From IMG/VR virus record IMGVR_UViG_3300038461_000380, positions 1 to 25,824 of that record: DNA of 25,824 nucleotides. One strand, given 5' to 3'. This DNA comes from a virus. A program made the translations under genes and the position numbers. A model generated the notes under the pieces. That model was given only the letters and a program-made list of their open reading frames with translations. It was not told the origin of the DNA and made no database searches. Positions 2,189 to 21,080 of this stretch are shown here, in pieces (within the stretch, counting starts at the first letter, position 1; each line of letters opens with the position of its first letter).

Positions 2189-2907
2189 AAAATTTATTGA
2201 TTTATTTAAGTCCGAATAAATGTTTTAGTAAAGAATGTGAAACTTTGGCTAAAATACAGATTGAAAATAGTATTGAATTGGGATGGAAAAAGGAAGACAT
2301 ATTGCTCGTTACCAATTTTGATTACAAGTATATGGGAGTTAAGTCCGAGGTTGTTGAAGATGACAATTATTGTGCCTTAAGACCAAGGTCGATAAATTCA
2401 ATAATTATTCCTCACTTGATAGAAAAGGGGATAATAAAAGATAGTTTTATTTACTGGGTTCATGATTTTGATGTTTATCAGATGAATTATTTTAGTGAAG
2501 ACATCCTTGGATTAGAAGAATTTGATGTTGGATTAACGGATTACGGTTGGAAGGAAAACTGGTGCATGGGTAGCTTTTTTGTAAAAAAGGGTTGCAAAGA
2601 AATTTTTATAGAGTTGAAAAAAATAGTTGAAAAGAACATAGAGGACGAGAAGGCAATGATGCAAATTACTTCGAAGTCTTGGGTTATGAACAGATGCAAA
2701 AGAATGAACATAACTTATGACTTCGGAATGAGAAATATTGTTTCTAATTATGGAAAAGCAGAAAAGCCTTTAAAAGTTTTACACTTTCATCCATATTATA
2801 GGTGGGTTAAAACTTTGGATATTTTTATGTATGGAAAGAATGAATTACAAATGCCTTTGATGGATAAAAGGTTAATAAAATTATTTAATAAATATGATAT
2901 CAGGTGA
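2185..2907 (+). CDS. Putative glycosyltransferase-like protein of unrecognised family
   Basis: 240 residues from the ATG at 2185, which overlaps the previous stop as ATGA (the frame is open further up from a TTG at 2176). I do not recognise the family. FIYWVHDFDVYQM (88-100) places D95-x-D97 after a hydrophobic strand, which is the usual position of the nucleotide-sugar/metal motif of GT-A glycosyltransferases. NWCMGSFFVKKG follows where an acceptor loop would be expected. The N-terminus LLIYLSPN is a first-strand-like segment. Position between a GT2 and another glycosyltransferase-like gene, with translational coupling on both sides, supports a role in glycan assembly. No signal peptide or membrane segment. 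Function is inference from context plus one motif. Confidence 0.5.
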   Translation: MKNLLIYLSPNKCFSKECETLAKIQIENSIELGWKKEDILLVTNFDYKYMGVKSEVVEDDNYCALRPRSINSIIIPHLIEKGIIKDSFIYWVHDFDVYQMNYFSEDILGLEEFDVGLTDYGWKENWCMGSFFVKKGCKEIFIELKKIVEKNIEDEKAMMQITSKSWVMNRCKRMNITYDFGMRNIVSNYGKAEKPLKVLHFHPYYRWVKTLDIFMYGKNELQMPLMDKRLIKLFNKYDIR

Positions 2908-3577
2908 TATTTGCATATTATTCCTTACGGTTAATAAAGTTCCAAAATACTGGTCTGAATTTCAAAGAAAAGTCTTGATGGAGGCCGCTGGAAAAATACC
3001 GATAATTACAGTTGCAAAAGAAAAACAGGATTGGGGTTCTGTTAATTTGATTCAAGAGGAGCCGATTTCCGTTTCTAATATTTATTGGCAAATGTTGAAG
3101 GTAGCTAAAACCGTTGATACAAAATATGTGGCAATAGCCGAAGACGATGTTTTATATCCTTATGAGCATTTTCACTCTTTCAGACCACCATTAGATACTT
3201 TTGCCTACAATTCAATCCGTTGGCAAGTTCATACATGGGAGCCGACATATTATTGGAGGTCGAAGATAGCTAATTATTCCCTTATTGCTCCGAGGGAGTT
3301 GATGATTGAGGCGTTGGAGGAAAGGTTTAAAAAGTATCCAGATGGTATCCCAGAAGAAAAGGCAGGGGAGCTTGGCAGGTGGACAGTTGAAAAAAGGTTG
3401 AAGGTTGAGGTCAGAAAGGCGATTGAATTTAGGACTACGATAGGATTGGTTTGTGTCCATCATGACTTTGGAATAGACCCATTAGAAAGAAATCATAGAA
3501 AGAGAATGGGAATGTTGAGAGCTTTTGATATTCCTTATTGGGGTCGTTCGGAGGATGTAATAAAAAAATTTATATGA
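2894..3577 (+). CDS. Glycosyltransferase-like protein, paralog A of a three-member family
   Basis: 227 residues, ATG at 2894 overlapping the preceding gene by 14 nt. A first strand (ICILFLTVNK) is followed by YVAIAEDDVLYPYEHF (78-93), whose EDDVLYP block recurs as ESDCLYP in the gene at 4865 and ENDVLYP in the gene at 6634. The C-terminal IPYWGRSEDVIKKF likewise matches IPYWGTAEEVRKKY at the end of the 4865 gene. The hydrophobic strand plus acidic [DE]xD-type motif fits a compact GT-A nucleotide-sugar transferase, but this is structural reasoning, not a family match. The stop overlaps the methyltransferase start as ATGA. Confidence 0.55.
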   Translation: MISGDICILFLTVNKVPKYWSEFQRKVLMEAAGKIPIITVAKEKQDWGSVNLIQEEPISVSNIYWQMLKVAKTVDTKYVAIAEDDVLYPYEHFHSFRPPLDTFAYNSIRWQVHTWEPTYYWRSKIANYSLIAPRELMIEALEERFKKYPDGIPEEKAGELGRWTVEKRLKVEVRKAIEFRTTIGLVCVHHDFGIDPLERNHRKRMGMLRAFDIPYWGRSEDVIKKFI

Positions 3578-4113
3578 CAATTAAGTTTTATAAATACGAC
3601 AAATACGGGGCTTATCACTGGCATTGGTATCAATATAAGAAGACATATATTGACCATGTAAACAAGGTTAAAGATTGGATTAAGGAAAAAAATGTTCTTG
3701 ATGTTGGGGCGGGAGATGGTTTAATAACAAGCATATTGGGAGCAAGAGGCATAGATAATGAGCCTGCTGGGGTTAAATTGGCTCGAGAAAGAGGTGTAGA
3801 TGTTATATTGGGAGATGCTCATAATCTACCCTTTAAAGATGAAGAATTTGAAGCTGTTTTTATGGGTGATACCTTAGAACATTTAGAATTTCCTGAAAAG
3901 GCAATAAAAGAGGCAAGAAGGGTTTTAAAGCATTATCTTTATTTGTCAACACCAATGAAGGGAGGCGGTTGGGATGTTTTACAATATAGAGAATGGAGCC
4001 CAGAGGAGTTAAAAGAAATGGTTGAAAATCAAGGTTTTAAAATGATTGGAGATATGGAAATGGTAGGTAAAAGAAGTTTTAGAAAATCTTATGCTAAATT
4101 TGAAAAAATATGA
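3574..4113 (+). CDS. Class I SAM-dependent methyltransferase
   Basis: 179 residues from the ATG at 3574 (ATGA overlap with the upstream stop; the frame stays open from a TTG at 3538, which I reject). VLDVGAGDG (41-49) is motif I of the class I S-adenosylmethionine fold, GIDNEP (59-64) supplies the acidic residue that binds the ribose, and GDAHNLPFKDEEF (80-92) with LEHLE (101-105) are motifs typical of the Methyltransf_11 group. Such small methyltransferases in glycan clusters usually O- or N-methylate a sugar. The acceptor is unknown. It is followed with an ATGA overlap by the radical SAM gene. Confidence 0.85.
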   Translation: MTIKFYKYDKYGAYHWHWYQYKKTYIDHVNKVKDWIKEKNVLDVGAGDGLITSILGARGIDNEPAGVKLARERGVDVILGDAHNLPFKDEEFEAVFMGDTLEHLEFPEKAIKEARRVLKHYLYLSTPMKGGGWDVLQYREWSPEELKEMVENQGFKMIGDMEMVGKRSFRKSYAKFEKI

Positions 4114-4892
4114 AGATACAAATGGAAAGTTCTACTTTTTGCAATGCGAGATGTTTATTTTGTCCGAGATATGAAATGAAAAGGAAAATGGGAGAGATGT
4201 CAGATGAGATATTTTATAAAGTAATAAAAGATGGAAAGGAAATAAACGCTAAATTTTATTCGCCCTTTCTTAATGGAGAACCTTTCGTTTTTCCGAGAAT
4301 ATGGGAGTGGCTTGATTATATGAAAAAGGAGGAAGTTCAGTTTTCTCTTTATACTAATGCTGAGTTTATGGACGTTGATAGATTGGTAAGTTATCCAAAT
4401 GTAAGATATGTTAATTGTTCTCTTAACGGAGCTACAAAAGAAACCTACGACAAGATTATGAGAGGACCTGACTATGAAAGGTCAAAGAAAAATATTGAAG
4501 AATTAATAAAAAAAGCAAATTTTAGGGTTCAAGTTTCAATGGTTGTTACAGAGGATAATGTTAAAGAGATTGACCAATTTAACAAAATGTGGGGTAAATA
4601 TTCAAAAATGAGGTCTTTTAAGAATTGGGGCGGAGATAGGCACTCTTCTTTTGAAGATAAAGGAGAGAAAAAACCTTGTTGGGCGGTTCTTAATACTATG
4701 GTTATACTTTGGGATGGCAGGGTTGTCCCTTGTTGTATGGACTATGATGGTAAATTAATACTTGGAGATATAAAAAAACAATCATTAAAAGAAATATGGC
4801 ACAATTCATATTGGCTGAGAGAAAAACATCGGAAACTGGATTTCAGTATGATTCCTTGCAAAGAATGCAACTACAACGCCGTTTGTCAATAA
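4110..4892 (+). CDS. Radical SAM protein with SPASM-type C-terminal cysteines
   Basis: 260 residues, ATG overlapping the upstream stop as ATGA. FCNARCLFC carries the CxxxCxxC [4Fe-4S] site (C11, C15, C18) that cleaves S-adenosylmethionine reductively. FLNGEPF (53-59) is the GGEP-like SAM-contacting motif and YTNAEF (81-86) the next core strand. The C-terminal region has C190, C208-C209, then C250-x2-C253-x5-C259, consistent with an auxiliary-cluster SPASM or twitch domain. SPASM enzymes modify peptides (including Ser oxidation in sulfatase maturation) or act in sugar and cofactor pathways. The location inside a glycan cassette does not distinguish these. The start lies three residues from the conserved region, as is common for short phage and surface-polysaccharide members. 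Confidence 0.85.
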   Translation: MKIQMESSTFCNARCLFCPRYEMKRKMGEMSDEIFYKVIKDGKEINAKFYSPFLNGEPFVFPRIWEWLDYMKKEEVQFSLYTNAEFMDVDRLVSYPNVRYVNCSLNGATKETYDKIMRGPDYERSKKNIEELIKKANFRVQVSMVVTEDNVKEIDQFNKMWGKYSKMRSFKNWGGDRHSSFEDKGEKKPCWAVLNTMVILWDGRVVPCCMDYDGKLILGDIKKQSLKEIWHNSYWLREKHRKLDFSMIPCKECNYNAVCQ

Positions 4893-5506
4893 TATACTAT
4901 ACAGCTAATGCAGAGAATATTGAATTTGAAAATAAAATTATTGATAATTTGAAATTGCAAGCAGGAGGAATAACGATTATAAGCGTTTCAAGAAAATCTA
5001 TTGATTTAGGAAAAAATATTTGTGTTGGAGAAAAACCCATATGTTATTCAAGCGAATTAAAGCAGATTTTAATAGGATTAAAAGAGGCTAAAACAGAATT
5101 TTGTTTGGCGGCAGAATCGGATTGTCTTTATCCGCCAGATTATTTCCAATTTATTCCAGAAATAAAAGATAGGGTTTATAGATATAATAATATCAAAATT
5201 CATTTTGAGGGCAGGGATAAATTCTGGAAGAAAAGTTGGGTAGAAGCAGGTCAAATTTGTGGAAGAGATTTTTGGATTAAAAGCATAGAAAAAGTTTTGT
5301 CTGGACAGAAAGATTGGGAGCCTATTAAAGTTAATCCCCCTTTTGTTTTCGATACAAAAGACAAATATGTTTTTTCAGGAGAAAATCCAATACTTTATTT
5401 TAAGACAAGACAGGGAATAGGTTTCAAGACAGGCTTTATACAGGGTTCATCAGAAGAAATTCCTTATTGGGGAACAGCAGAAGAAGTAAGGAAAAAATAT
5501 TTATGA
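4865..5506 (+). CDS. Glycosyltransferase-like protein, paralog B of a three-member family
   Basis: The open frame extends up to 4796, but that would overlap the radical SAM gene by nearly 100 nt, so I start at the ATG at 4865 (213 residues). A TTG at 4883 is an equally plausible start and would place LSIIYYTAN at the N-terminus, like GIIYYTDN in the paralog at 6634. Shared features of the family are a first strand IIYYT, the acidic motif ESDCLYP (84-90) after a hydrophobic strand, and IPYWGTAEEVRKKY at the C-terminus. The role is most likely transfer of a sugar by a GT-A-like fold, but the family is not one I can name. ATGA overlap with the next gene. Confidence 0.55.
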   Translation: MQLQRRLSIIYYTANAENIEFENKIIDNLKLQAGGITIISVSRKSIDLGKNICVGEKPICYSSELKQILIGLKEAKTEFCLAAESDCLYPPDYFQFIPEIKDRVYRYNNIKIHFEGRDKFWKKSWVEAGQICGRDFWIKSIEKVLSGQKDWEPIKVNPPFVFDTKDKYVFSGENPILYFKTRQGIGFKTGFIQGSSEEIPYWGTAEEVRKKYL

Positions 5507-6015
5507 ATATAAAATTAAATAAAACTGATTTATTTTTAGGAAAAAATTATACCACCCACATTCCAATGCTTTTAAAAGCAGTTCAAATGACCGATGGAGC
5601 AGTATTGGAACTTGGAGGAGGTTTATTTAGCACACCATTATTGCATTGGCTTTGCTCTGAAAGCAGAAGAAAATTAATCACTTATGAAAGCAACAGAGAT
5701 TTTGAAAAGTTTCTTAGAACATTTTTCAGTAGAACACATCGTATTATATTTATTGATGATTGGTATAAAATTGATTTAAGGGGTCATTGGAGCGTAGCTT
5801 TTATAGACCATTCTCGTGGAAACGAGGGGGTTGAGGGCAGGAAAAAAGATGCTTTAAGGTTGAAAGATATTGCCGATTTCATTGTTTTACACGATACAAA
5901 TGAAAAAGAATATGTTAGAGATAAGAAGTTTTGGTCGAACTTCAAGTATATTTATCACTGGACTTGGTGCACACCAAACACCAGTATAGTGAGCAATTTT
6001 TATGAAATTAAGTGA
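5503..6015 (+). CDS. Putative class I SAM-dependent methyltransferase
   Basis: 170 residues starting at the ATG that overlaps the upstream stop (ATGA). VLELGGGLFST (34-44) is a recognisable glycine-rich SAM-binding motif, E62 in LITYESN is the ribose-binding acid at the end of strand 2, and AFIDHSRGN (99-107) plus FIVLHDTNE (126-134) resemble motifs IV and the LHD segment seen in FkbM/Methyltransf_24-like enzymes. The protein is short, with no extra domain. A methylation step on a glycan is inferred from the neighbouring glycosyltransferases. Acceptor unknown. Confidence 0.65.
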   Translation: MNIKLNKTDLFLGKNYTTHIPMLLKAVQMTDGAVLELGGGLFSTPLLHWLCSESRRKLITYESNRDFEKFLRTFFSRTHRIIFIDDWYKIDLRGHWSVAFIDHSRGNEGVEGRKKDALRLKDIADFIVLHDTNEKEYVRDKKFWSNFKYIYHWTWCTPNTSIVSNFYEIK

Positions 6016-6631
6016 AGGAATAAACATTATAAGTGGAAGACCAGGGGAAATTCCCGATGCTTCCAGAAATGATTTCCCTGAATTTTTTAGGGAAATGGGT
6101 TTTAAGTCAGGTGCAGAAATAGGAGTTTATAAGGGAGAATATACGAAAATTTTAGCAAGTTCAGGATTGGAAATTTATGCAATTGACCCATGGCGTATTT
6201 ATAGGGATTATGGAAATCCAAGAGGTCAAAAAAGGTTAGACTTTCAATATGACCATACTTGTAGATATCTTTCCGATTGTCCAAATGTAAAAATTGTTCG
6301 AAAAACATCTTTAGAAGCATTAGAAGATTTTCCCGATGGTAGTTTGGACTTTGTTTATATAGACGGAAATCATCATTTTGAGTATGTTGCCCAAGATATA
6401 GTTGAATGGACAAGAAAAGTAAGGAAGGGTGGAATTGTTTCAGGACATGATTATATTTACACCAAGTCAAGGTCAGTTAATGGAGGTTGTGATGTTCATT
6501 ATATAGTTGATGCCTATGTAAAGGCAGCAAAGATAAGAAATTTTTGGGTAGTTGGAAGAAAAAAATACATTGAAGGGGAAAAAAGAGACAGATGGCGTTC
6601 TTGGTTTTGGATTAAAGAGAAAGATTGGTAA
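6002..6631 (+). CDS. Class I SAM-dependent methyltransferase (Methyltransf_24-like)
   Basis: 209 residues, ATG at 6002 overlapping the previous gene by 14 nt. AEIGVYKGEYTKIL (38-51) is the SAM-binding loop in the form usual for sugar O-methyltransferases, IYAIDPW (58-64) places acidic D62, FVYIDGNHHFEYV (117-129) supplies the metal/acceptor-side Asp-His cluster, and GGIVSGHDY (143-151) is the strand-5 motif of this group. It is distinct in sequence from the methyltransferase at 3574 and closer in pattern to the one at 5503. It probably methylates a sugar hydroxyl. The 3' end is 2 nt from the next ATG. Confidence 0.8.
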   Translation: MKLSEGINIISGRPGEIPDASRNDFPEFFREMGFKSGAEIGVYKGEYTKILASSGLEIYAIDPWRIYRDYGNPRGQKRLDFQYDHTCRYLSDCPNVKIVRKTSLEALEDFPDGSLDFVYIDGNHHFEYVAQDIVEWTRKVRKGGIVSGHDYIYTKSRSVNGGCDVHYIVDAYVKAAKIRNFWVVGRKKYIEGEKRDRWRSWFWIKEKDW

Positions 6632-6633
6632 TT

Positions 6634-7356
6634 ATGAAAAAAGGAATAATTTACTATACGGATAACAGGTTGGGGGAGCCATTATTTTCTATTGTTCAGA
6701 AAAATATTTTAAATTCAGGTCTTCCGATTGTTAGTTGTTCATTAAAACCGATAAATTTTGGAAAAAATATAGTTGTTGAAGGGGAAAGTAGTTATCCGAC
6801 AATGGTTAGGCAAATTATTACTGCCTTAGAGGCAAGTGATTCTGATTATGTGTTTTTTTGTGAAAATGATGTTTTATATCCAAAAACACACTTTGATTTT
6901 GAACCAAAAAGGGATGATATTTTTTATTATAATGGAAATGTTTGGAGGTGGTGGATTTATGGTGAGAAAGCAATTACATATGATAGGTTGATTTCTCTTT
7001 CTGGTCTTTGTGTAAATAGAAATTTGGCATTAGAAAATTATAAAATTAGATTAAAAAAAATAGAGGAATTGGAAAAAAAGGAATTTGAAACTCATGAACC
7101 AAGGATAATTAGAGTTTGGGGTTATGAGCCTGGAACCAAAAAGAAAAGAAGAGGAGGCATTACAGATGATGATTTTGAAATGTGGTATTCAGAAGAACCG
7201 ATTGTTGATTTAAGACACGATAAAACTTTCACCTGTTCAAAAGTATCATTAAGTAATTTTAAACATCAACCAATTGGTTGGATAGAAATAACAATAGATA
7301 AAATAAATTATTGGAATTTAAGAGAAATATATAATTCATGTAATTGGAAAAATTAA
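6634..7356 (+). CDS. Glycosyltransferase-like protein, paralog C of a three-member family
   Basis: 240 residues from ATG 6634, 2 nt after the upstream stop; the in-frame TTG at 6625 overlaps the previous gene and is less likely. GIIYYTDNR (4-12) and YVFFCENDVLYPKTHF (72-87) match the IIYYT and [DE]xDxLYP blocks of the genes at 2894 and 4865. The C-terminal IPYWG is degenerate here (INYWN). It has an extra charged, Lys/Glu-rich segment around residues 110-160 not seen in the other two. Same tentative role as its paralogs; divergence suggests a different donor or acceptor. Confidence 0.55.
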   Translation: MKKGIIYYTDNRLGEPLFSIVQKNILNSGLPIVSCSLKPINFGKNIVVEGESSYPTMVRQIITALEASDSDYVFFCENDVLYPKTHFDFEPKRDDIFYYNGNVWRWWIYGEKAITYDRLISLSGLCVNRNLALENYKIRLKKIEELEKKEFETHEPRIIRVWGYEPGTKKKRRGGITDDDFEMWYSEEPIVDLRHDKTFTCSKVSLSNFKHQPIGWIEITIDKINYWNLREIYNSCNWKN

Positions 7357-7365
7357 CAAAAAAAT

Positions 7366-8343
7366 ATGAAAAACAAATGTGATTTAAGCATTTTAATTCC
7401 AAGTCGAAATGAGGAGTTTTTAAAAAATACAATAGATGACGTTTTACTTAACATAGAAGCAGATACTGAAATTATTGTTGTTTTTGATGGTCAATGGCCC
7501 GTAGAACCGATACCGCAAAATGAGAGGGTAAATATAATTTATGTTAAAGATTCTATTGGTCAAAGGGCAGCGACAAATCTTGCTTGTAAGTTAGCAAGGG
7601 GAAAATATGTAATGAAGATTGACGCTCATTGTTCTTTTGATAAGGGTTTTGACAGAAAAATGATAGAAATGTTTAATATGGCTGGTGAAAATACAACTAT
7701 GGTTCCAATAATGCGTAATTTATGGGCATTTGATTGGAATTGTAGAAGATGCGGTTGGAAAAAGTATCAAGGTCCTACTCCTAAAAGATGCCCTCAATGT
7801 AATGATTCCCGCTATATTATTAAAAAGATTATGTGGGTTGGAAAACATAATCCTCAGTCAACTTCTTATTGTTTCGATTCAGAACCGCATTTCCAGTATT
7901 TTGAGGATTATAAACATAGACCGATTTATGAAAAAGATAAAAAAGAAAAAGGCTTAACAGAAACAATGAGTTTGCAGGGTTCTTGTTTCATGTGCACTCG
8001 TGAAAAATACTGGGAATTAAATATTTGTGATGAAAGTTTTGGTTCTTGGGGTAATCAGGGTATTGAAGTAGCTTGTAAAACTTGGTTATCGGGTGGTCAA
8101 GTATTAGTTAATCATAATACTTGGTATGCACATATGTTTCGCACGCAAGGAGGAGATTTCTCTTTTCCATACGAACAGTCAGGAAGAGAAGTTTTAAAAA
8201 CAAAAAATAAGGTTTGGAATTTTTTTCTTGATGGAAAATGGGATAAACAAAAATTTAAAATGAGTTGGCTTGTTGAAAAATTTAATCCTGTGCCTGGTTG
8301 GACACAGGAAAGTATAATAAAATTAAAAAATAATAAAAATTAA
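7366..8343 (+). CDS. Family 2 glycosyltransferase with inserted zinc ribbon, GalNAc-transferase-like motifs
   Basis: 325 residues. LSILIPSRNEEFLKNTIDDV (7-26) is the GT2 N-terminus, VVFDGQW (38-44) the next strand, and KIDAHCSF (84-91) the D86-A-H88 metal site. WGNQGIEVACKTWLSGGQVL (228-247) followed by NTWYAHMFR (251-259) closely mirrors the WGGEN...W-x-x-GG-x-L...GHxFR region of GT27 polypeptide GalNAc-transferases. Between the two halves there is CRRC (126-129) and CPQC (142-145), a four-cysteine zinc ribbon not present in the sibling enzyme at 1415. The ribbon may bind acceptor or stabilise the fold. The gene starts 9 nt after the previous stop and ends 1 nt before the next ATG. Confidence 0.82.
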   Translation: MKNKCDLSILIPSRNEEFLKNTIDDVLLNIEADTEIIVVFDGQWPVEPIPQNERVNIIYVKDSIGQRAATNLACKLARGKYVMKIDAHCSFDKGFDRKMIEMFNMAGENTTMVPIMRNLWAFDWNCRRCGWKKYQGPTPKRCPQCNDSRYIIKKIMWVGKHNPQSTSYCFDSEPHFQYFEDYKHRPIYEKDKKEKGLTETMSLQGSCFMCTREKYWELNICDESFGSWGNQGIEVACKTWLSGGQVLVNHNTWYAHMFRTQGGDFSFPYEQSGREVLKTKNKVWNFFLDGKWDKQKFKMSWLVEKFNPVPGWTQESIIKLKNNKN

Positions 8344-8344
8344 T

Positions 8345-8632
8345 ATGTTTCAATACACAATTTTAGACATCAGTTATAACATCAGTGAAATACAGGTTAG
8401 ATACAATATCTTAGAAAATGATGAAGTTTTACTGGAAAGAGCAAGGACATTTCAAGTCAAAGAAGATACAGATATTGACCAATTAAAAGCCGAAATAGAC
8501 TTCTATATTCAATCAGAAATTGACCAGCTGAAAATAGTTAAGAACATTGCAGACCAATTAGAAGATGTAAAAAATGTATCGGTAGAATTGGGAAAATCAT
8601 TAGTTAATCAAATAAATAAAGAAAAATTATAA
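8345..8632 (+). CDS. Small coiled-coil hypothetical protein
   Basis: 95 residues, not recognised. The first third is beta-like (FQYTILDISYN, EIQVRYNIL). From residue about 40 it is highly charged and helical (DIDQLKAEIDFYIQSEIDQL) with heptad-like spacing, so a coiled coil is likely. It has 1-nt gaps on both sides, coupling it to the zinc-ribbon glycosyltransferase and the beta-helix protein. No signal peptide or membrane segment. The position directly before a large putative virion surface protein would suit a small structural or assembly partner, but that is only context. Confidence 0.6.
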   Translation: MFQYTILDISYNISEIQVRYNILENDEVLLERARTFQVKEDTDIDQLKAEIDFYIQSEIDQLKIVKNIADQLEDVKNVSVELGKSLVNQINKEKL

Positions 8633-8633
8633 A

Positions 8634-11027: not shown

Positions 11028-12182
11028 ATGGCAATAAATACTGGAGACCAATCAAGATGGCTAAAAGGAAATCCAGCCATTATTCAGTATAATTCTGATA
11101 ATTTTGATTTAGGCTCAGAAACTTATTGGCTAAATGGAAAACCAGTTATTATTCAGTATCAGAAAACTGGGGCTGTTTCTTTTTCACCATCTTTATCTCC
11201 AAGTATAAGTCCATCTATATCGCCTTCATTAAGCCCTTCAATCTCTCCGAGTATTTCTTTGAGTCCAAGTATCTCGCCAAGTATCAGTCCTTCCTTTTCA
11301 CCCTCTATAAGCCAAAGTATTAGTCCATCTTTTTCACAAAGTATTTCCCCTTCCATAAGTCCATCGGTTTCGTTAAGTCCGTCATTTTCTCCCTCTATTA
11401 GTTTTTCTTTTTCACCGAGTATCAGTCCATCGGCCAGTCCTTCGATTTCGCCTTCTTTCTCTTCTTCAGCATCTCCTTCGCTGTCTCCATCTATTAGTCA
11501 TTCAATAAGTCCATCTGTTTCCTTAAGTCCTTCTTTTTCTCCTTCCTTAAGTCAATCTTTAAGTCCTAGCTTTTCCCCATCATTAAGCCAATCAATTTCC
11601 CCAAGCGTTTCTTTATCACCGAGCTTATCTCCTTCATTAAGCTCATCAATCAGCCCATCTATTAGTCCCTCAGTATCTTTAAGCCCTTCTCTGTCTCCAA
11701 GTTTGAGTCCTTCATTGAGCCCCTCATTAAGTCCCAGCATTAGCTTATCTGTAAGCCCTTCTGTAAGCCCTTCAATTGTTTTTCCTGATTATACTCGGGG
11801 AGAATATGCTTCTCCTCCAATTAATAATAATGATTTATCTACCGCCTATTCTGCTCAAGATTATTCTGATGTTTCTGCTGATGATGATAAAAGAGTTGGT
11901 CAAACTGCTACCTCTGATTATGCAATACATCAATTTAAAGATTATATCAATTCAGCAGGGGCAAACTTTTATTGGAAGGGACAGACAAATTGTGCTCCTA
12001 CCTTAAGTGCGGTTTATCTTCAAATTTACAACAAGAACACTTCTTCTTGGGAAAATCTTGCTTTTGACAATTCTTCTACAAGAGATGTGGATTTTATATT
12101 GACTGCAAACAAGACGGATTTAACGAACTATAAAGATATTAATGGAGGTATAAGTTGTCGCGTATATCAATTAGACATATGA
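11028..12182 (+). CDS. Ser-Pro repeat protein with C-terminal beta-sandwich-like domain
   Basis: 384 residues in three parts. Residues 1-50 contain a duplicated motif, RWLKGNPAIIQY and YWLNGKPVIIQY, spaced about 23 residues apart. Residues 51-250 are an uninterrupted repeat in which Ser occupies essentially every second position and the alternate positions are Pro or Ile/Leu/Val/Phe (for example SPSISPSLSPS). Residues 252-384 are a normal-composition domain (YTRGEYASPPINNNDL, FYWKGQTNCAP, VYLQIYNKNTSSWENLAF) resembling discoidin/jelly-roll ligand-binding modules, and it may be a tip domain. The ATG is 3 nt after the upstream stop, and the 3' end overlaps the radical SAM gene as ATGA. It is probably a virion or cell-surface stalk with a terminal binding domain. 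Confidence 0.75.
   Translation: MAINTGDQSRWLKGNPAIIQYNSDNFDLGSETYWLNGKPVIIQYQKTGAVSFSPSLSPSISPSISPSLSPSISPSISLSPSISPSISPSFSPSISQSISPSFSQSISPSISPSVSLSPSFSPSISFSFSPSISPSASPSISPSFSSSASPSLSPSISHSISPSVSLSPSFSPSLSQSLSPSFSPSLSQSISPSVSLSPSLSPSLSSSISPSISPSVSLSPSLSPSLSPSLSPSLSPSISLSVSPSVSPSIVFPDYTRGEYASPPINNNDLSTAYSAQDYSDVSADDDKRVGQTATSDYAIHQFKDYINSAGANFYWKGQTNCAPTLSAVYLQIYNKNTSSWENLAFDNSSTRDVDFILTANKTDLTNYKDINGGISCRVYQLDI
11178..11777 (+). repeat. Ser-Pro repeat tract 1 (600 nt, in frame)
   Basis: Encodes 200 residues of strict Ser-X alternation. The DNA uses all six Ser codons in mixed order (tct, tca, tcg, tcc, agt, agc) and several codons for Pro and the hydrophobic residues, so the peptide is far more regular than the DNA. 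The coding strand is strongly pyrimidine-rich. Confidence 0.9.
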
Positions 12183-12793
12183 TTATAGAAAATTTGGAAA
12201 TATCAAGTTTATGTAATATGGATTGCGATTATTGTGGTCGGAAGTATATAACTCGAGAAAAAGGTATAATGAGTTTAGAAATGATTGATAAAATTGGTAG
12301 AAAAATTAAAGGAAAACAGAAAATTGTTTGGCTCCATGGTTGGGGCGAACCATTGACACATCCTTATTTAAAAGAAGTGATGTATATCTTGAAAAGTTAT
12401 GGGGTAAATAGTTGCTTTTATACCAACGGGAACCTACTAACCGAAGAAATGGTTGATATGCTTTCTAAAAGCCCAATCAAAACAATCTGTGTGACGATGA
12501 ACAATTGCACGAAAGAAAATTTAGTAGATAAATTGATTAAGAAATGTAAATTTCAAGTAAAAAAGGTTTGGGTAAATATAACAACAAGTCCGAAAAAAGA
12601 ATATTGTATAGAAGAATACAGCAATCCATTGTGGGGGACTAAAAAGAAGTGTTTCTATCAAAATGGAAAAGAATGTCAATTTAGGAAAGATGGAAAAGTT
12701 AATATTACAAGTAATGGAAGGGTAACCACCTGTGTAAAGGATTACGATTATTTTACAAGTAAGGTTTTAGATTTTAATTGTCCATTTATATGA
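12179..12793 (+). CDS. Radical SAM protein, short form
   Basis: 204 residues from the ATG that overlaps the upstream stop (ATGA); an in-frame TTG at 12155 is a poorer start. LCNMDCDYC supplies CxxxCxxC (C12, C16, C19), GWGEPL (54-59) is the GGEP motif, and CFYTNGNLL (79-87) the following core strand. The C-terminal part has C158, C166, C185 and C201, fewer and differently spaced than the SPASM cysteines of the enzyme at 4110, so an auxiliary cluster is uncertain. Lying between a Ser-Pro repeat protein and a nucleotide-sugar enzyme, it could act on peptide or on sugar. Neither is shown by the sequence. ATGA overlap with the next gene. Confidence 0.82.
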   Translation: MIIENLEISSLCNMDCDYCGRKYITREKGIMSLEMIDKIGRKIKGKQKIVWLHGWGEPLTHPYLKEVMYILKSYGVNSCFYTNGNLLTEEMVDMLSKSPIKTICVTMNNCTKENLVDKLIKKCKFQVKKVWVNITTSPKKEYCIEEYSNPLWGTKKKCFYQNGKECQFRKDGKVNITSNGRVTTCVKDYDYFTSKVLDFNCPFI

Positions 12794-13626
12794 AAATTTT
12801 GATAATTGGAGGATGTGGGTTTATTGGTAGTCATTTAGTTGAAAAATTGAAAGATAATAAATTGGTTGTTTTAGATAATAATTTTACTGGTAATTATAAA
12901 ATAAAGGGAGTGAAATACATTAAGGGAGAAAGTAAAGATATAGACAAATTGATTAAATTTAAGCCAGATATTATTTATCATTTAGGAGAATATTCAAGAT
13001 TAATAACAAGTTTTGAAGACATAGAAAGAGTGATTGAATATAACGCCATAGGAACATTAAGGGTGGTTGAATTTTGTAGAAAAAATAAAATAAGATTGAT
13101 TTATGCTGGTTCAAGTTCAAAATTTGGCAACAAAGAAAGTCCATATAGTTTTATTAAAAGTTTTAATTCAGAATTAATAAAAAGATACGGAAAATGGTTT
13201 GGGTTGAATTATGCAATAGCTTATTTTTATAGTGTTTATGGAGAAAGAGAAATAAAAAATGGAAAATATGCAACAGTAATTGGAATTTTTAGTGAAAATA
13301 TTAAAAATAAAAAGACACATATTGTAAATAATGGAAAACAAAAAAGACACTTTACTAATGTTTCAGATATCATAGATGGATTATTGTTGATTGGTAAAAA
13401 AGGAAAAGGGGAATATTGTTTAGGAAACAGAAAAGAATATTCAATATTAGAAGTCGCTAAAATGTTTGGAGGAAAAATTAAAATTCAAAAAGGAAAAATG
13501 GGAGATAGTAGTTTTATAAAATTATACGATAAAAGAATAAAAAAATTAGGATGGAAGCCAAAAGTAAACCTAAGGGATTATATTAAAAATGAAAAAGATA
13601 TTGGTCGTAGTCTTAACGCATATTGA
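12790..13626 (+). CDS. NAD-dependent nucleotide-sugar epimerase/dehydratase (extended SDR)
   Basis: 278 residues, ATG overlapping the preceding stop as ATGA. GGCGFIG (7-13) is the dinucleotide-binding loop, YHLGEYS (63-69) the usual HxA-type strand in a slightly altered form, AGSSSKFG (106-113) carries the catalytic Ser, and YSFIK (119-123) the YxxxK pair. KRHFTNVSDIIDGLL matches the R-x-F-x-x-V-x-D-x-x-x-G substrate region. Clearly related to but different from the enzyme at 561. It is more Lys-rich and AT-rich than its neighbours. It probably makes the donor for the glycosyltransferase-like domain encoded just downstream, with which it overlaps by 38 nt. Confidence 0.87.
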   Translation: MKILIIGGCGFIGSHLVEKLKDNKLVVLDNNFTGNYKIKGVKYIKGESKDIDKLIKFKPDIIYHLGEYSRLITSFEDIERVIEYNAIGTLRVVEFCRKNKIRLIYAGSSSKFGNKESPYSFIKSFNSELIKRYGKWFGLNYAIAYFYSVYGEREIKNGKYATVIGIFSENIKNKKTHIVNNGKQKRHFTNVSDIIDGLLLIGKKGKGEYCLGNRKEYSILEVAKMFGGKIKIQKGKMGDSSFIKLYDKRIKKLGWKPKVNLRDYIKNEKDIGRSLNAY

Positions 13627-16600
13627 TTATTTTGGATTATTTCCCAGAGTTTGGGAGAATATTTTAAAATTGGATAAACCTGAAGGATACCAGGTTGATT
13701 TTATTGCGGTTACAAATTTTACAAACGACCAATCGGAAGAATTTAAAAAATACATAGCAGATAATAATATTGATTTAAGAGTGCCAGTTATAGACATCGA
13801 AGCATATAGAAAACAAATGCCCGATGGTTGGAAAGAAATGGTTGGAGAATTTACCGAAGAAGCTATATTTAAACAAATTGAAACAAGGAATTATTATAGG
13901 CAGATAATGATTGATGGCGGTTATGATTATATGCTTAATGTGGATGGCGATATTTTGCCACCTAAAAATGCTCTTATAAAATTGCTTTCAGATAATAAAG
14001 ATATAGTTGGTGCGTGGACTTATAGTAAAAGACACTGGGGTTGTTTGGCGATGCCAGATAAAATTAAATATGGGAAAGTTTACGAAGTGATAATGAATGG
14101 AACATATTGTTTGTTGGAAAATAGAAAGATAACAATGAATTATCCATATAGTGTTTATCAAGAGAAAGGAGTAACCGGAACCGATGATCATAAAAGATAT
14201 ATAGATATAAGAAAAAATGGTGACAAAATGTATGTAGACCCATCTATATACTGTGAACATTTGATAGAATCAACTGGTGAAATTTATAAACCAACAGAAA
14301 AACAACTTAAGGAACAATTTGCGGTAACCGATATAGTTTCTCAAGAAAAGGAAAATTTAAATTCTACAACTTTTAAATATACTCAAAAAGATAGCAATAA
14401 TGATAAATTATGTGAAGTAGAAGTAGGAAACATTAATAGTAAAAATTTTGAACCACATATTAAAATTTCAAAATGGGATGGAGAGGTAAATTTAGAAATA
14501 TTTTCTGATGGAAATGGAGATTATATTTTTGAAGAAGAAAAGCATAAACTTATTAATAAAAAACTTGAATATCATTTTTATCCTAAAAAACCAGAAGAAA
14601 TTGGATTTGATAATTGGTATGAACCATATGAAACTTGTTTGGAAGGTGGATTTGAATTTGAAGTTATATTAAAAGAAAAGCCAGCAAGCAATATTATTTC
14701 CCTTAACATAGGTGGAGATATCGATGATTTAGACTTTTATTATCAGCCTTTTTTAACATCAGACGAAAGATTGTTGATGGAGGTTGAAGGAAAATTATTA
14801 AGAATTCCAGAAGTGGAAGGTTCTTATGTTATTTATCATAAAACTAAAAAAGATGATTATTCTCAGATAGGTGGTAAAAACTATGGAACGGGAAAAATAG
14901 GGGATATCTTAAGACCCAGGATGATTGATGCAAACGGAAAAGAAGCATGGGGAATAATAAATATAGATACTAAAAATAGAAAATTAACTATAGAAATACC
15001 GCAGGATTTTTTAGAAAATGCAGTTTATCCAATAAGACATGCTACTGGATTAACATTTGGATATGGGACAGCAGGTGCTTCTTCAACTAATCTATCATCT
15101 ACATCAGATATAGCAGGTTCTGTTTTTGTTGGTGCAATAGGAACATCTCAAAATATGACAGCCGTTTGTAGTGGGACAGGAAAAGCTACAATGTCTATTT
15201 ATCTTGATACTTTATACACCAAAACAGATGTTACGGCTGAATTCACACCGCCAGCAACTAAAAGTTCAATAACACAAAATTTAGGAGGTGTAATTTTATC
15301 GGCTGTGAATTATTGGCTTTTGATGAGAGCTTCTGGTGCTGGGGGATCGGGTGAAGATTTAACTACTTTTTATTATGATGTCGGAAGTGCCAATCAAGGT
15401 TGTATAGCCGATTCTGGTTCTGACGCTCAAGGATATACCTGGCCTGCAAGTTTGTCTTTTACTTCTAAGAATTCAAATAAATATTCAATTTACTGCACAT
15501 ATACTACTGGTGTTAGCTTTAGTCCTTCTATTTCTCCTTCAATCTCTCCCAGCGTAAGTCCATCATCTTCTATTTCTTCCTCTTTTTCACCGAGCGTCAG
15601 TCCCTCAGTTTCCCTATCAACTTCATTAAGTCCCTCGCTTTCAACATCAATTTCTCCAAGTATAAGTCCTTCTGTTTCGCCTTCAATATCTTTAAGTCCA
15701 TCAATCTCTCCGTCAATATCACCAAGCATATCTCCTTCGTTTTCGCCTTCTGCGAGTCCCTCCTTATCGCCATCAATTAGCCCATCGGTTTCACCGAGTG
15801 TTTCAAAGAGTCCATCAATCTCTCCGTCAATATCACCAAGCATATCTCCTTCGTTTTCGCCTTCTGCGAGTCCCTCCTTATCGCCATCAATTAGCCCATC
15901 GGTTTCACCGAGTGTTTCTTTGAGTCCAAGTATATCCCCAAGTGTAAGTCCTTCCATCTCGTCATCAATAAGTCCAAGTGTTAGCCCCTCGATTTCACCC
16001 AGTATTTCTCCTTCTGTAAGCCCTTCAATATCGTTAAGCCCTTCATTTTCTCCTTCAATAAGCCCCTCCCTTTCACCGAGCATTAGCCCATCGGTTTCAC
16101 CGAGCGTTTCAAAGAGTCCATCAATTTCCCCATCAATTAGTCTATCAATTTCGCCTTCATTGTCTCCATCAACCAGTTCTTCGATAAGTCCCTCCGTAAG
16201 TCCACCGATAACAACAAATCTCAAAGTAAATTATTGGCATATAACACCTTTGGGTGCTCCAAGTTTTTCACCGAGCATTAGCCCTTCGGTGTCTCCTTCG
16301 GTTTCAATTTCTCCTTCTCTGTCTCCGAGTCTTAGTCCTTCTTTTTCTCCAAGCGTCAGTCCTTCGGTTTCATTCAGTCCTTCGCTTTCACCATCGATAA
16401 GTCCAAGCATTAGTCCCTCAATTTCGTTCAGTATTTCGCCCTCTATAAGCCCATCGGTTTCATTGTCTCCATCTTTAAGTCCCAGTATCTCTCCCTCTTT
16501 TTCACCGAGTCTTAGTCTCTCTGTTAGTCCTTCTTTAAGCCCATCGGTATCTATTAGCCCTTCTATTAGTCCAAGTATCAGTCCTTCGGTTTCTCAATCT

Positions 16601-18082
16601 CCCTCTCTTAGCCCAAGCATTAGCCCATCTGTAAGCCCAAGCGTTTCCCTTTCTCCTTCTTTAAGTCCGAGCGTCAGTCCTTCTATTAGTCCATCAATTT
16701 CAATTTCTCCTTCTCTTTCTCCAAGTATCAGCCCTTCTTTTTCGCCAAGCGTTAGTCCTTCGGTATCAATTAGCTCTTCCTTTTCGCCTTCTTTGAGCCC
16801 AAGTGTCAGTCCTTCTCTGTCAATTAGTATTTCACCATCAGTTAGTCCTTCTGTTTCTATTAGTCCTTCGTTTAGCCCAAGTTTGAGCCCCTCAATATCA
16901 CCCTCAATATCGCCAAGTATCTCTCCTTCGGTATCTCCTTCGGTTTCTTTGAGTCCTTCTATTAGTCCCTCTCTTTCGCCATCTTTGTCGCCCTCTCTTT
17001 CTTTTAGCATTAGTCCATCTATTAGTCCCTCTATTTCACTAAGTCCTTCTCTTTCGCCTTCAATTAGTCCAAGTTTGAGTCCCTCAATCTCTATTTCTCC
17101 TTCTATAAGTCCAAGTATTAGTCCTTCTGGTTTTTCTAAAAGTCCTTCTATTAGTCCATCTATATCTTTTAGTCCGAGTTTAAGCCCATCAATAAGTCCT
17201 TCTATTTCTAAGTCTCCGAGTATCAGCCCCTCTGTTAGCCCGTCTGTTAGTTTAAGTCCTTCGTTTAGTCCATCTGTTAGTCAAAGCGTTAGCCCTTCCA
17301 TTTCTATATCGCCTTCTTTCAGCCCGAGCATTTCTTTCTCTGTAAGTCCTTCAGTTTCGGCTTCACCATCTCTAAGCCCATCTATCAGTCCATCGGTTTC
17401 ACAGTCCCCTTCCTTGAGTCCCAGTATTTCTCCTTCGGTTAGCCCATCGGTTTCAATTAGCCCAAGTTTTTCACCAAGTATTAGTATCTCTATAAGTTCA
17501 AGTATTTCCCCTAGTATCAGCCCTTCTTTATCGCCAAGCATTTCGAAAAGTCCTTCTTTTTCTCCAAGTATTTCACCTTCGCTAAGTCCATCAATATCTT
17601 TAAGCCCTTCATTTTCTTTAAGTATTTCTCCAAGTTTGAGTCCCTCGGTTTCAAAATCACCCAGTTTCAGCCCATCATTAAGTCCTTCTATCAGTCCTTC
17701 TGTTTCTTTATCGCCCAGCTTTAGCCCTTCTTTTTCGCTTTCAATCAGTCCTTCTGTTTCTCCAAGCATTTCAATATCGCCAAGTATCAGTCTTTCATTG
17801 TCGCCATCAATTAGTCCTTCGGTAAGTCCAACGCCTCCTCCATTTGTTTTGGAAACTTTGGCGGGAAATTCTGTCTTGGAATTAGTCAAAGAAAACACCC
17901 TGTCTGGGTTAACTATAGTAGAGAAAGGAAGGCCTTGCCCCGTTGAACTTGTTTCTGTGATTAGAACACCATTGGAAACAGAAATTATTGAAATTGAAAG
18001 GACGCCCTTAAAGACAGAGATAATTGAAATCAAAAGAACACCATCGGAAACAGAAATAAAAATAAAAGATTGTGGTTTTTAG
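13589..18082 (+). CDS. Giant fusion: glycosyltransferase-like domain + beta-rich domain + long Ser-Pro repeats
   Basis: 1497 residues in one open frame. Residues 1 to about 240 look like a GT-A glycosyltransferase: KKILVVVLTHIDYFGLFPRV, then YMLNVDGDILPP (114-125) with D119-G-D121, then CLAMP and YCEHLIE, where H224 is a candidate third metal ligand. Residues about 258-640 are beta-rich (FEPHIKISKWDGEVNLEIF, LEGGFEFEVILKEKP, LDFYYQPFLTSDE, EGSYVIYHKTKKDD, GWTY-free AVYPIRHATGLTFGYG) and resemble a domain I associate with phage structural proteins. Residues 645-1414 are the Ser-Pro repeat, broken once at 873-891. Residues 1459-1494 are three 12-residue repeats (RTPLETEIIEIE type), ending in a lone Cys. 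No ATG lies between the glycosyltransferase-like and beta-rich parts, so the fusion appears genuine. Probably a virion stalk or fibre. Confidence 0.7.
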   Translation: MKKILVVVLTHIDYFGLFPRVWENILKLDKPEGYQVDFIAVTNFTNDQSEEFKKYIADNNIDLRVPVIDIEAYRKQMPDGWKEMVGEFTEEAIFKQIETRNYYRQIMIDGGYDYMLNVDGDILPPKNALIKLLSDNKDIVGAWTYSKRHWGCLAMPDKIKYGKVYEVIMNGTYCLLENRKITMNYPYSVYQEKGVTGTDDHKRYIDIRKNGDKMYVDPSIYCEHLIESTGEIYKPTEKQLKEQFAVTDIVSQEKENLNSTTFKYTQKDSNNDKLCEVEVGNINSKNFEPHIKISKWDGEVNLEIFSDGNGDYIFEEEKHKLINKKLEYHFYPKKPEEIGFDNWYEPYETCLEGGFEFEVILKEKPASNIISLNIGGDIDDLDFYYQPFLTSDERLLMEVEGKLLRIPEVEGSYVIYHKTKKDDYSQIGGKNYGTGKIGDILRPRMIDANGKEAWGIINIDTKNRKLTIEIPQDFLENAVYPIRHATGLTFGYGTAGASSTNLSSTSDIAGSVFVGAIGTSQNMTAVCSGTGKATMSIYLDTLYTKTDVTAEFTPPATKSSITQNLGGVILSAVNYWLLMRASGAGGSGEDLTTFYYDVGSANQGCIADSGSDAQGYTWPASLSFTSKNSNKYSIYCTYTTGVSFSPSISPSISPSVSPSSSISSSFSPSVSPSVSLSTSLSPSLSTSISPSISPSVSPSISLSPSISPSISPSISPSFSPSASPSLSPSISPSVSPSVSKSPSISPSISPSISPSFSPSASPSLSPSISPSVSPSVSLSPSISPSVSPSISSSISPSVSPSISPSISPSVSPSISLSPSFSPSISPSLSPSISPSVSPSVSKSPSISPSISLSISPSLSPSTSSSISPSVSPPITTNLKVNYWHITPLGAPSFSPSISPSVSPSVSISPSLSPSLSPSFSPSVSPSVSFSPSLSPSISPSISPSISFSISPSISPSVSLSPSLSPSISPSFSPSLSLSVSPSLSPSVSISPSISPSISPSVSQSPSLSPSISPSVSPSVSLSPSLSPSVSPSISPSISISPSLSPSISPSFSPSVSPSVSISSSFSPSLSPSVSPSLSISISPSVSPSVSISPSFSPSLSPSISPSISPSISPSVSPSVSLSPSISPSLSPSLSPSLSFSISPSISPSISLSPSLSPSISPSLSPSISISPSISPSISPSGFSKSPSISPSISFSPSLSPSISPSISKSPSISPSVSPSVSLSPSFSPSVSQSVSPSISISPSFSPSISFSVSPSVSASPSLSPSISPSVSQSPSLSPSISPSVSPSVSISPSFSPSISISISSSISPSISPSLSPSISKSPSFSPSISPSLSPSISLSPSFSLSISPSLSPSVSKSPSFSPSLSPSISPSVSLSPSFSPSFSLSISPSVSPSISISPSISLSLSPSISPSVSPTPPPFVLETLAGNSVLELVKENTLSGLTIVEKGRPCPVELVSVIRTPLETEIIEIERTPLKTEIIEIKRTPSETEIKIKDCGF
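15521..17830 (+). repeat. Ser-Pro repeat tract 2 (2.3 kb, in frame)
   Basis: About 770 residues of Ser-X alternation, X being Pro or Ile/Val/Leu/Phe with occasional Lys, Gln, Ala or Thr. The dominant unit is the 4-residue SPSx, with 2-residue phase inserts such as SLSPS or SKSPS. A 19-residue non-repeat island (PPITTNLKVNYWHITPLGAP) is encoded at 16205-16261 and may mark the join of two once-separate tracts. Codon use is mixed except for the 114-nt duplication listed separately. Confidence 0.9.
15695..15918 (+). repeat. Perfect 110-bp direct duplication, 114-nt period, inside Ser-Pro tract 2
   Basis: Bases 15695-15804 and 15809-15918 are identical by direct reading. They are separated by the 4-nt aaag, giving a 114-nt (38-codon) tandem period that keeps the frame. 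A further near-copy of part of it, 42 of 43 bases, lies at 16083-16125 (compare 15777-15819). Most of the tract is diverged at the DNA level, so this looks like a recent expansion. Confidence 0.92.
17963..18070 (+). repeat. Three 36-nt repeats at the C-terminus of the giant fusion protein
   Basis: Encodes three consecutive 12-residue units, RTPLETEIIEIE, RTPLKTEIIEIK and RTPSETEIKIKD. Alternating charged and beta-branched residues suggest short amphipathic beta-strands, possibly a trimerisation or anchoring foot for the Ser-Pro stalk. DNA identity between the units is only partial. Confidence 0.8.
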
Positions 18083-18165: not shown

Positions 18166-18224
18166 AAAAGCCGAGAGAAAGGAACAACCTCAATCGGAGT
18201 ATTTGTTTTTTTCTCTCGGCTTTT
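18166..18224 (+). terminator. Strong hairpin in the gap before the tail module: terminator or structured leader
   Basis: aaaagccgagagaaa (18166-18180) pairs perfectly over 15 bp with tttctctcggctttt (18210-18224) around a 29-nt loop. The 3' arm ends in a T run, which suits an intrinsic terminator for the upstream 18-kb region. However, the loop is long, the U tract is mostly part of the stem, and the ATG at 18236 starts only 12 nt downstream. If the promoter at 18085 is real, the hairpin is in the 5' leader of the tail operon and could be an attenuator or RNA-protecting structure. A smaller GGGG/CCC hairpin precedes it near 18144-18160. Confidence 0.6.
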
Positions 18225-18235
18225 TATTAAAAAAT

Positions 18236-19195
18236 ATGTCAACTTTAACACCAATAGAAATAGAAATTTCTTGGTCAACAAAATCAGGTGCAGTTAATTA
18301 TAGAATTTATAAAAGACAACCTAATTCTTATTGGTCTTTGATTGCCACCGTTGATGCTCCAACAACAAGTTATATTTTTAATGGATATGAAAATACTCAA
18401 TATATGTTTGGAGTAAGAGTTTGGAATGGTTCTTATGAGTCGGATTTGGCTTTGCAAAATTATCCACAAGATGTTTCTGCAACTTGGCAAACACCCTCCA
18501 ACACTCCAAGCGGTCTTCCAATGGTGACTCCGTATGATATTCAGTATGTTACCAAAGATGAATTTTTAACCTCTCCAATAGCAAAAGGATTGGGATATAC
18601 AGTTGATTCTATTGATTATACTGATGGAACTATAGACCACGCCCTTTTAAAAGCTTCGAGTTATGTTAATAGATATTGCCGTAGATATTTTAATAAAATG
18701 ACGATAGATGAAATTTATCCGAATGTTACTATACAGGTTTCTAATCCAAGATTAACTACTGTTCCTTTACGATATGGTCCCGTTCAGAACATAAATTCAA
18801 TAACAATACAGGTCTTGAAATGGTTTATTCCTTTTACAAAAGATTATTTAATACAACACCCTGAGCAGAGATTTTATCAAATAGTTCCAATGATTTCTTC
18901 TTCTGGAACCACTGGAAGTCCTATCCCCTCTGTTTTGCTGGAGCAATCAGATTTAGGAATAATTTGGACAAATTATACTTTTGGATATGATGTTATCCCA
19001 GAGGATATAAAGCACGCCGTTGAAGTGATAGCAGGACAGGAATTGGCAATGTTGAAACAAAATCCGATGGGAGCAACTTCTTTAAAGACGGGAAACTTTG
19101 CTATTACATTTGGAAAAAATGAAGAAAATCCTGTATTGAATGAAGTTAAAAGCATTTTAAATCCTTGGGTGCTTCATACCCTTCGCATGACATAA
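18236..19195 (+). CDS. Head-tail adaptor (gp6-like connector) with N-terminal fibronectin type III domain
   Basis: 319 residues from ATG 18236; the frame extends to 18203 but that start would lie inside the hairpin. Residues about 1-80 form a fibronectin type III domain: TPIEIEISWSTKSGAVNYRI, then YTF-like strands TSYIFNGYENTQYMFGVRVW and the SYESDLAL end. Residues about 95-319 resemble the HK97 gp6-type head-tail connector: a first helix after TIDHALLKASSYVNRYCRRYF, a beta-rich middle (NSITIQVLKWFIP), and IPEDIKHAVEVIAGQELAML plus NPVLNEVKSILNPW near the end. This protein would form the ring docking under the portal. The gene order that follows supports the call. The fused Ig-like decoration is unusual. 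Confidence 0.68.
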   Translation: MSTLTPIEIEISWSTKSGAVNYRIYKRQPNSYWSLIATVDAPTTSYIFNGYENTQYMFGVRVWNGSYESDLALQNYPQDVSATWQTPSNTPSGLPMVTPYDIQYVTKDEFLTSPIAKGLGYTVDSIDYTDGTIDHALLKASSYVNRYCRRYFNKMTIDEIYPNVTIQVSNPRLTTVPLRYGPVQNINSITIQVLKWFIPFTKDYLIQHPEQRFYQIVPMISSSGTTGSPIPSVLLEQSDLGIIWTNYTFGYDVIPEDIKHAVEVIAGQELAMLKQNPMGATSLKTGNFAITFGKNEENPVLNEVKSILNPWVLHTLRMT

Positions 19196-20444: not shown

Positions 20445-21080
20445 ATGCCAGTAATTTCATCGGGGGTAGGAGTTTCAGAACGTTTAACTTTTAATTCAGG
20501 CTATCTTGATTTTGGCAATAGCAGTGATGGATATAAAAGATTGGTTGATGTGGAAAGCATTTCAGTTGATGTTTCTTTTGCCGAAAAGGAAGTTCGGCGT
20601 TTAAATTCAATAAAAATAGCAGCCCACAAAAGAGCTACTTTAAAAGTTAATTTAAAAGCTAAGACAAGGTCAGTAAATTGGGAGATACTTCTCAATGTTA
20701 TGGGAACGGATACTGTTGAGGCATCAGGCAGAACAGTTAGTATTTATAATGGACAAATTGCTACTGCCAATAATCCAGTTTTTACTTCTTATGTTGACGA
20801 TGATGTTGCGAATCCAGTTCAGTTTCAATTAACAGACGCCATAATAGTTTCTTCACCAACAACTTCTAATTTAGAGGATTTCGGGACAATGGATTTGGAA
20901 CTTTTCGCAAGGGATATAAAGATTTACACCGTCTCTACCTCGCCTTCAAAAAGTCCTTCTGCATCACCTTCTGTTAGTCCTTCTGTTTCAAAATCACCTT
21001 CGGCAAGTCCTTCAAAATCAACTTCAAAATCTCCTTCAAAATCACCTTCTGTTAGTCCTTCAGTTTCACCAAGTCCATAA
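20445..21080 (+). CDS. Tail tube protein paralog 1 with C-terminal Ser-Pro repeat tail
   Basis: 211 residues. Residues 1-163 are a tail-tube-like domain paralogous to the next gene: both begin MP-I, share ERL-FNSG-DFG, RRLNSIK-A-HKR, PVFT-YVDDDVA-P-QFQ and the final L-E-G--DL-L--RD motifs. Residues 164-211 are a perfectly alternating Ser-X tail (SPSKSPSASPSVSPS and similar) containing five Lys, unlike the more hydrophobic tracts elsewhere. If this is the major tube subunit, every ring would display a fringe of six such tails. Position between the tail terminator and the assembly chaperone fits a major tail protein. No Shine-Dalgarno sequence; A-rich leader. Confidence 0.75.
   Translation: MPVISSGVGVSERLTFNSGYLDFGNSSDGYKRLVDVESISVDVSFAEKEVRRLNSIKIAAHKRATLKVNLKAKTRSVNWEILLNVMGTDTVEASGRTVSIYNGQIATANNPVFTSYVDDDVANPVQFQLTDAIIVSSPTTSNLEDFGTMDLELFARDIKIYTVSTSPSKSPSASPSVSPSVSKSPSASPSKSTSKSPSKSPSVSPSVSPSP
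20934..21077 (+). repeat. Ser-Pro repeat tract 3 (144 nt) on the tail tube gene
   Basis: Encodes 48 residues with Ser at nearly every second position and Pro, Lys, Ala, Val or Thr between. Same architecture as tracts 1 and 2 but Lys-bearing and short, and it ends at the stop codon with no tip domain. Confidence 0.9.

Follow-up and report, generated by a model that had tools for sequence, protein, structure and literature searches.

A predicted glycosyltransferase fused to a serine-rich fibre-like protein in a metagenomic phage

In the stretch of DNA analysed here, a 25,824-base viral record in IMG/VR (hereafter the window), a predicted GT-A glycosyltransferase (GT), which is a separate protein in a relative, forms one chain with a long, serine-rich fibre-like protein, a sign that this phage may decorate its surface spikes with sugar itself. 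Our preferred reading, to which we give a probability of roughly one half, is that a fibre-like protein became joined to a formerly separate GT-A enzyme and that the fused GT helps locally to glycosylate serine stalks of the same phage. Few phages are known to glycosylate their virions, and pairing a modified protein with its enzyme is usually hard; here the fusion directly names a likely enzyme partner.

Layout of the fused reading frame

The ORF runs on the plus strand from an ATG at 13589 to a stop codon ending at 18082 and encodes 1497 residues. ORF call and translation agree on this single frame with an earlier note on the same DNA, whose order of a beta-rich domain followed by a repeat also holds; the beta-rich part, however, consists of two domains, and an 83-residue tail ends the protein (Table 1).

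Table 1. Features of the window; assignments are predictions based on the evidence in the last column.
Feature	Position	Strand	Basis or remark
Nucleotide-sugar epimerase-like SDR, start of cassette A	561..1427	+	phrog_540 E 4e-68
Cassette A	1403..8343	+	Pfam; synteny
GT2, cassette A	1403-2188	+	Pfam
Unassigned GT-like ORFs, cassette A	2176-2907, 2894-3577, 4796-5506, 6625-7356	+	
Methyltransferases, cassette A	3538-4113, 6002-6631	+	Pfam/synteny
Radical SAM/SPASM, cassette A	4110-4892	+	Pfam/synteny
Zinc-motif GT2, cassette A end	7366-8343	+	Pfam; synteny
Second Ser-Pro protein	11028..12182	+	C-terminal domain also in L017, L020, L025, L030, L033
Radical SAM protein, cassette B	12155..12793	+	Homologue two genes upstream of GT gene in L034
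Nucleotide-sugar epimerase-like SDR	12778..13626	+	Epimerase E 1e-32; phrog_540 E 2e-51
GT-A glycosyltransferase domain, residues 1-234	13589..14290	+	AlphaFold model, VIA, profile matches, phrog_1574, conserved residues
Junction, residues 235-258, without start codon	14291..14362	+	Site matching L034 GT stop/beta start, ATGA overlap
Beta-rich N domain of head, residues 259-486	14363..15046	+	hmmsearch family; model
Lectin-like jelly-roll, residues 487-642	15047..15514	+	VIA structural matches
Alternating-serine (S-P-S-[ILVF]) tract, residues 643-1414	15515..17830	+	Main interruption 872-891
C-terminal non-repeat tail, residues 1415-1497, and stop	17831..18082	+	Translation
Head-tail adaptor	18203..19195	+	phrog_442 E 1e-14
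Tail-tube-like protein with C-terminal Ser-Pro tail	20445..21080	+	Between tail terminator and tape measure

Three lines of evidence, namely a structural model, its structural neighbours and a sequence profile, identify the N-terminal domain as a predicted GT-A enzyme. The AlphaFold model of the domain, based on an 11-sequence alignment, reaches a pLDDT of 81.8 and a pTM of 0.83 and takes up the GT-A fold that the earlier note had supposed, proposing such a model of residues 1-250 as a check. Foldseek of this model against the PDB returned 335 matches at E up to 0.001. In VIA-align, COLGALT1 (9evj) ranks first with a Z of 17.3 and an rmsd of 4.2 A over 217 residues, and LH3, Mnn9 and mimivirus R699 align to the model at Z about 16-17 (Foldseek, VIA-align). 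The closest folds are those of COLGALT1/LH3 and R699, at sequence identities of 9-17%, although fold likeness does not give specificity. COLGALT1 and LH3 are enzymes that glycosylate collagen, a repetitive rod protein, and that the top structural neighbours act on such rods is in favour of the preferred reading. On the sequence level, phmmer with the GT sequence alone against the PDB gave noise only, whereas the GT profile retrieved STIV A197 (2c0n) and Mnn9 at E 9.7e-8. The phrog_1574 profile matches at E 1.7e-5, limited to residues 111-170, and does so more strongly in relatives (1.4e-30 in L052). PF00535 (Glycos_transf_2) is absent from the fused domain in a Pfam search at E up to 0.1; its curated cut-off is reached by two neighbouring GT2 genes of cassette A, 1403-2188 and 7366-8343.

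The fused GT has the DxD metal-binding motif D119/D121, the catalytic Asp D200 and the late His H224. Across the 11-sequence alignment of phage relatives, D121, P186, D200 and H224 never vary and D119 hardly does, which bears out the earlier identification of D119-G-D121 and H224 as well as the remark that, with its DxD intact, the domain is not obviously dead. All catalytic residues being present in the modelled fold, the domain is probably active as a glycosyltransferase.

Residues 259-486 are modelled with a mean pLDDT of 88.5 and have no match in Pfam, PHROG or NCBIfam. No convincing fold emerged for them: in a match list crowded by the jelly-roll, their best partial match is a galactose mutarotase-like protein (Z 7.8); a beta-head profile run against the PDB yielded weak antibody matches only, which we judged to be chance. 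The following jelly-roll aligns in VIA with the baseplate/central fibre of mycobacteriophage Douge (Z 15.1), the lectin-like domain of Cwp84 (Z 14.2), a capsid unit of cyanophage A4 (Z 13.5) and the Bxb1 tail tip (Z 13.1), its predicted fold resembling phage fibre/tail-tip, capsid-associated and Cwp84 lectin-like domains. The notion of a sugar-binding head on a stalk, raised in the earlier note, is plausible through this domain and not through the GT. That the GT itself, without turnover, should act as a sugar- or nucleotide-sugar-binding head on the stalk would suit its place at the N-terminal tip and the adjacent lectin-like jelly-roll. We consider it improbable, since its metal-binding and base residues are conserved in relatives and intact here, and a lectin-like domain is already present in the protein.

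The repeat, put at 770 Ser-Pro residues before and at 772 by our measurement, contains 382 Ser and 157 Pro. Serine occupies alternate positions in three runs (115, 145 and 116 serines), broken mainly by the interruption listed in Table 1 and one short slip, and the residues in between are mostly Pro, Ile, Leu, Val or Phe. The serine codons swap freely between TCN and AGY without loss of the serine (codon positions 1 and 2 show 0.4-0.5 mismatches per pair), so the pattern is upheld at the level of the protein and not by recent DNA slippage. For SPSISPS-type motifs, nothing relevant was found in the literature. Long minus-strand ORFs lie antisense over the repeat (15490-16224, 16594-17010 and 17281-18033); as genes they were rejected because the repeat composition explains them. 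A short TRF array is located at 17963-18059, within the C-terminal tail region.

Origin of the fusion

The closest GT of two relatives, L034 and L035 (IMGVR_UViG_3300033388_006324 and 3300033145_001597), has a gene of its own immediately before the beta gene, whose start it overlaps by four bases (ATGA). It shares 42% identity with the fused GT over residues 1-241 (phmmer 1.7e-63), and further hunts for GT relatives by alignment and pattern scans led mainly to this pair again. GT homology stops at about residue 234, and that to the beta protein starts near residue 252-258. Since the two genes are separate and overlapping in L034/L035, the sequences point to the window ORF being a fusion of two translationally coupled neighbours whose stop/start junction was lost. 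The gap between GT and beta homology, 69 nt in the window versus 101 nt in L034 by hand count, looks like a deletion that removed stop and start and thereby merged the frames.

That the genes are separate in L034/L035, and that the fusion in the window rests on a single metagenomic contig, would also fit a sequencing or assembly error in which two L034-like genes were joined by a base error or a chimeric join. Several observations make this unlikely. The earlier note had seen no ATG between the two parts; in fact residues 225 to 340 contain no in-frame ATG, GTG or TTG, which makes a simple frame error improbable. Of 142 hypothetical single-base shifts, 35 leave the beta gene any start, and all 35 rely on one weak GTG at 14277, which lies in the conserved part of the GT. 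In addition, the GC content changes smoothly across the join, and the shortened gap has the appearance of a genuine deletion.

Relatives of the head and their glycan cassettes

Single-protein scans of viral contigs with the GT or the beta part found no relatives, nor did a first two-row alignment used as query, and the window has no close DNA relatives among phage records. The family was opened by a degenerate DNA motif for N-A-V-Y-P-[IV]-R-H-A, followed by an alignment search. Defined here as a beta domain (conserved W, GSY, K-P and YP motifs) followed by a jelly-roll ending in ..SIYxTYT, it comprises 56 non-redundant viral loci plus cellular ones (hmmsearch); the window scores 1e-88 in hmmsearch, and the family alignment has 53 rows. 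Large proteins of surface type from Omnitrophota and Patescibacteria genomes (phyla according to record titles) contain the beta domain too; on these cellular proteins no GT was found in the genome samples searched.

The earlier note had suggested looking for relatives whose beta part opens a gene by itself, and such relatives were found. This is the usual, though not essential, arrangement: in 52 viral relatives the beta domain starts a median of 35 and a maximum of 195 residues past the upstream stop, as against 281 residues in the window. The fused GT is absent from all others of the 56 non-redundant viral loci, which leaves the window as its sole carrier. The combination of beta part and serine tract, by comparison, is a recurrent architecture among metagenomic phages, and the jelly-roll often directly precedes a long low-complexity stalk, which is of S-P type in L012, L017, L020, L021, L029 and L062, of S-T type in L008, of S-F type in L040 and L057, and made of other repeats elsewhere. 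Because of the GT, the part before the tract has about 640 residues in the window and usually about 370-420 in the SP-tract relatives.

Some relatives differ within or just upstream of the head. In L008, a second tandem beta-head protein (6768-9341) with a long STSTSS tract after the beta domain has a class-I methyltransferase (PF08241, E 6e-6) inserted within that domain at about 7236-7691, by its sequence probably another enzyme borne inside the same type of fibre-like head. A different unnamed domain of about 220 residues lies inside the beta domain of L081 (598-1254); its homologue in L074 (4231-4995; 25% identical) lies in a neighbouring gene that ends just before the remaining beta domain, as if split, and neither has a credible database match. 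Fusions of a GT with Methyltransf_24 stand directly upstream of beta-head genes in L022 (3403-4707), L052 (3592-4800) and L054 (3506-4744).

The window itself has two glycan-type cassettes, 561-8343 and 12155-13626, besides structural genes. The first 38 bases of the fused ORF lie within the second SDR gene, and the head-tail adaptor downstream means that the fused gene adjoins the neck/tail module, which has the canonical order of head-tail adaptor, neck1, tail terminator, tail-tube-like paralogues, tape measure, tail-fibre-like gene and Dit. Three Ser-Pro proteins are encoded, one of them a tail-tube-like protein with a Ser-Pro tail at its C-terminus; the tandem paralogue of the latter (21150-21626) is 49% identical and lacks this tail. 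The second Ser-Pro protein ends in a domain (11787-12182; YTRGxxAxxP ... CRVYQ) that recurs after Ser-Pro tracts in several phages and for which no database name was found. Each glycan cassette includes a radical SAM gene, the first of them with SPASM. The GT2 at the end of cassette A bears a rubredoxin-like CxxC zinc motif, conserved in L012, L019, L020, L029, L033 and L041; in L029 and L041 its counterpart is joined to another GT-like domain.

SDR, GT2, MT24 and zinc-motif GT genes are kept in sequence and partly in order in five of these six loci, while L020 keeps the cassette end only. In all six the cassette immediately precedes the beta-head/Ser-tract region, with gene matches of 1e-55 to 1e-152. 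Ser tracts accompany 6/6 cassette loci versus 9/50 other loci, with a p of 1.5e-4, or 0.005 with L033, where the contig ends within the beta gene, scored as negative, both values being optimistic owing to shared descent and classes set post hoc. Taking whole records of 20 kb or more, PF00535 exceeds its cut-off in 6/7 Ser-tract records versus 6/23 without a tract (p 0.009, again optimistic). As ancestry is shared and the groups were seen before counting, these values are support and not proof. Judged by their sequences, the genes around the fused ORF argue for glycosylation of virion proteins.

Proposed function and comparison with known systems

According to the preferred reading, beta head, lectin-like jelly-roll and long alternating-Ser stalk would together form a phage fibre-like protein, onto whose gene a coupled GT-A gene would have merged through the lost stop/start junction. 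The GT domain would use a nucleotide sugar, partly from the supply of the cassette, and, being tethered, would help to glycosylate stalk serines of its own chain, of neighbouring copies or of sibling Ser-Pro proteins, either ahead of assembly or in the course of it. Cassette enzymes acting later might extend or methylate the glycan, and the end product would be a sugar-coated virion spike. This is favoured by the GT-A fold with its intact catalytic residues, the overlap of the closest separate GT with the beta-gene start, the zinc-motif cassette adjoining Ser-tract genes in six relatives, the greater frequency of PF00535 in Ser-tract records, the three Ser-Pro proteins in one window and the mycobacteriophage glycans at capsid and tail-tube C-termini (PMC12619734, PMC11256854). 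A more specific form, which we offer as a tentative hypothesis, is a self-glycosylating virion fibre, in which the N-terminal GT-A domain would modify the hundreds of alternating serines while the virion is assembled, either in cis on its own stalk or on adjacent copies. Such a fibre would be the phage counterpart of serine-rich-repeat glycoproteins, with enzyme and acceptor in one polypeptide.

Against the preferred reading stand the single fused example on one metagenomic contig and the fact that most Ser-tract relatives do without a fused GT, so the fusion is not required. Moreover, in L034 the beta protein next to the separate GT has a tail without an alternating-Ser tract, so the GT goes with the beta head, not with the tract itself, and may belong to the head. 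This pairing in L034, together with related GTs found close to beta genes both with and without tracts (L054, L052, L008), agrees with an active GT that has another target, be it the head (beta domain and jelly-roll), a different protein of the virion, or a glycan that is being built up or belongs to the host, the fusion being a tolerated consequence of adjacency. We regard this as possible but rather doubtful, as it leaves the strong association between cassette and Ser tract unexplained, although that association concerns the cassette and not the fused GT. If local glycosylation of the serine stalks is true, the single polypeptide, expressed alone, could serve to test GT, donor and acceptor together. 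The conserved cassette beside Ser-tract fibre genes is also a searchable metagenome signature for glycosylated phages.

Among the GTs, phrog_1574 proteins and the standalone GT of L034/L035 are homologous to the fused domain over their full length and have the same catalytic residues. Unlike the fused GT, that of L034/L035 has its own gene and stop, and in L034 it is likewise positioned just before the beta gene. STIV A197 is a small crenarchaeal viral GT-A like the fused domain, but it is a standalone 197-residue protein without a stalk; its suggested substrate is the major coat protein (PMC10551542).

No GT joined to both a fibre head and a Ser stalk turned up in the literature or sequences searched, and no fusion of GT and acceptor was seen in the excerpts of the mycobacteriophage glycosylation literature (PMC11256854, PMC12619734). 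Che8 and related mycobacteriophages encode GTs and carry glycans on capsid and tail-tube C-termini (PMC11256854, PMC12619734), which the Ser-Pro tail of the tail-tube-like protein recalls. Fap1-type streptococcal glycoproteins combine a long Ser-rich stalk and a head domain beside a glycosyltransferase cluster, and the window likewise has a long Ser-rich repeat next to such a cluster. In Fap1, Gtf12 places GlcNAc on stalk serines and other enzymes extend it (PMC5207161). Fap1 and its relatives differ in being bacterial cell-wall adhesins with accessory secretion and with glycosyltransferases unfused to the adhesin, and their repeat is unlike the S-P-S-[ILVF] of the window. By analogy, the locus would work like streptococcal serine-rich-repeat loci (PMC5207161) and like phage virion glycosylation, though it is not classed here as a member of either.
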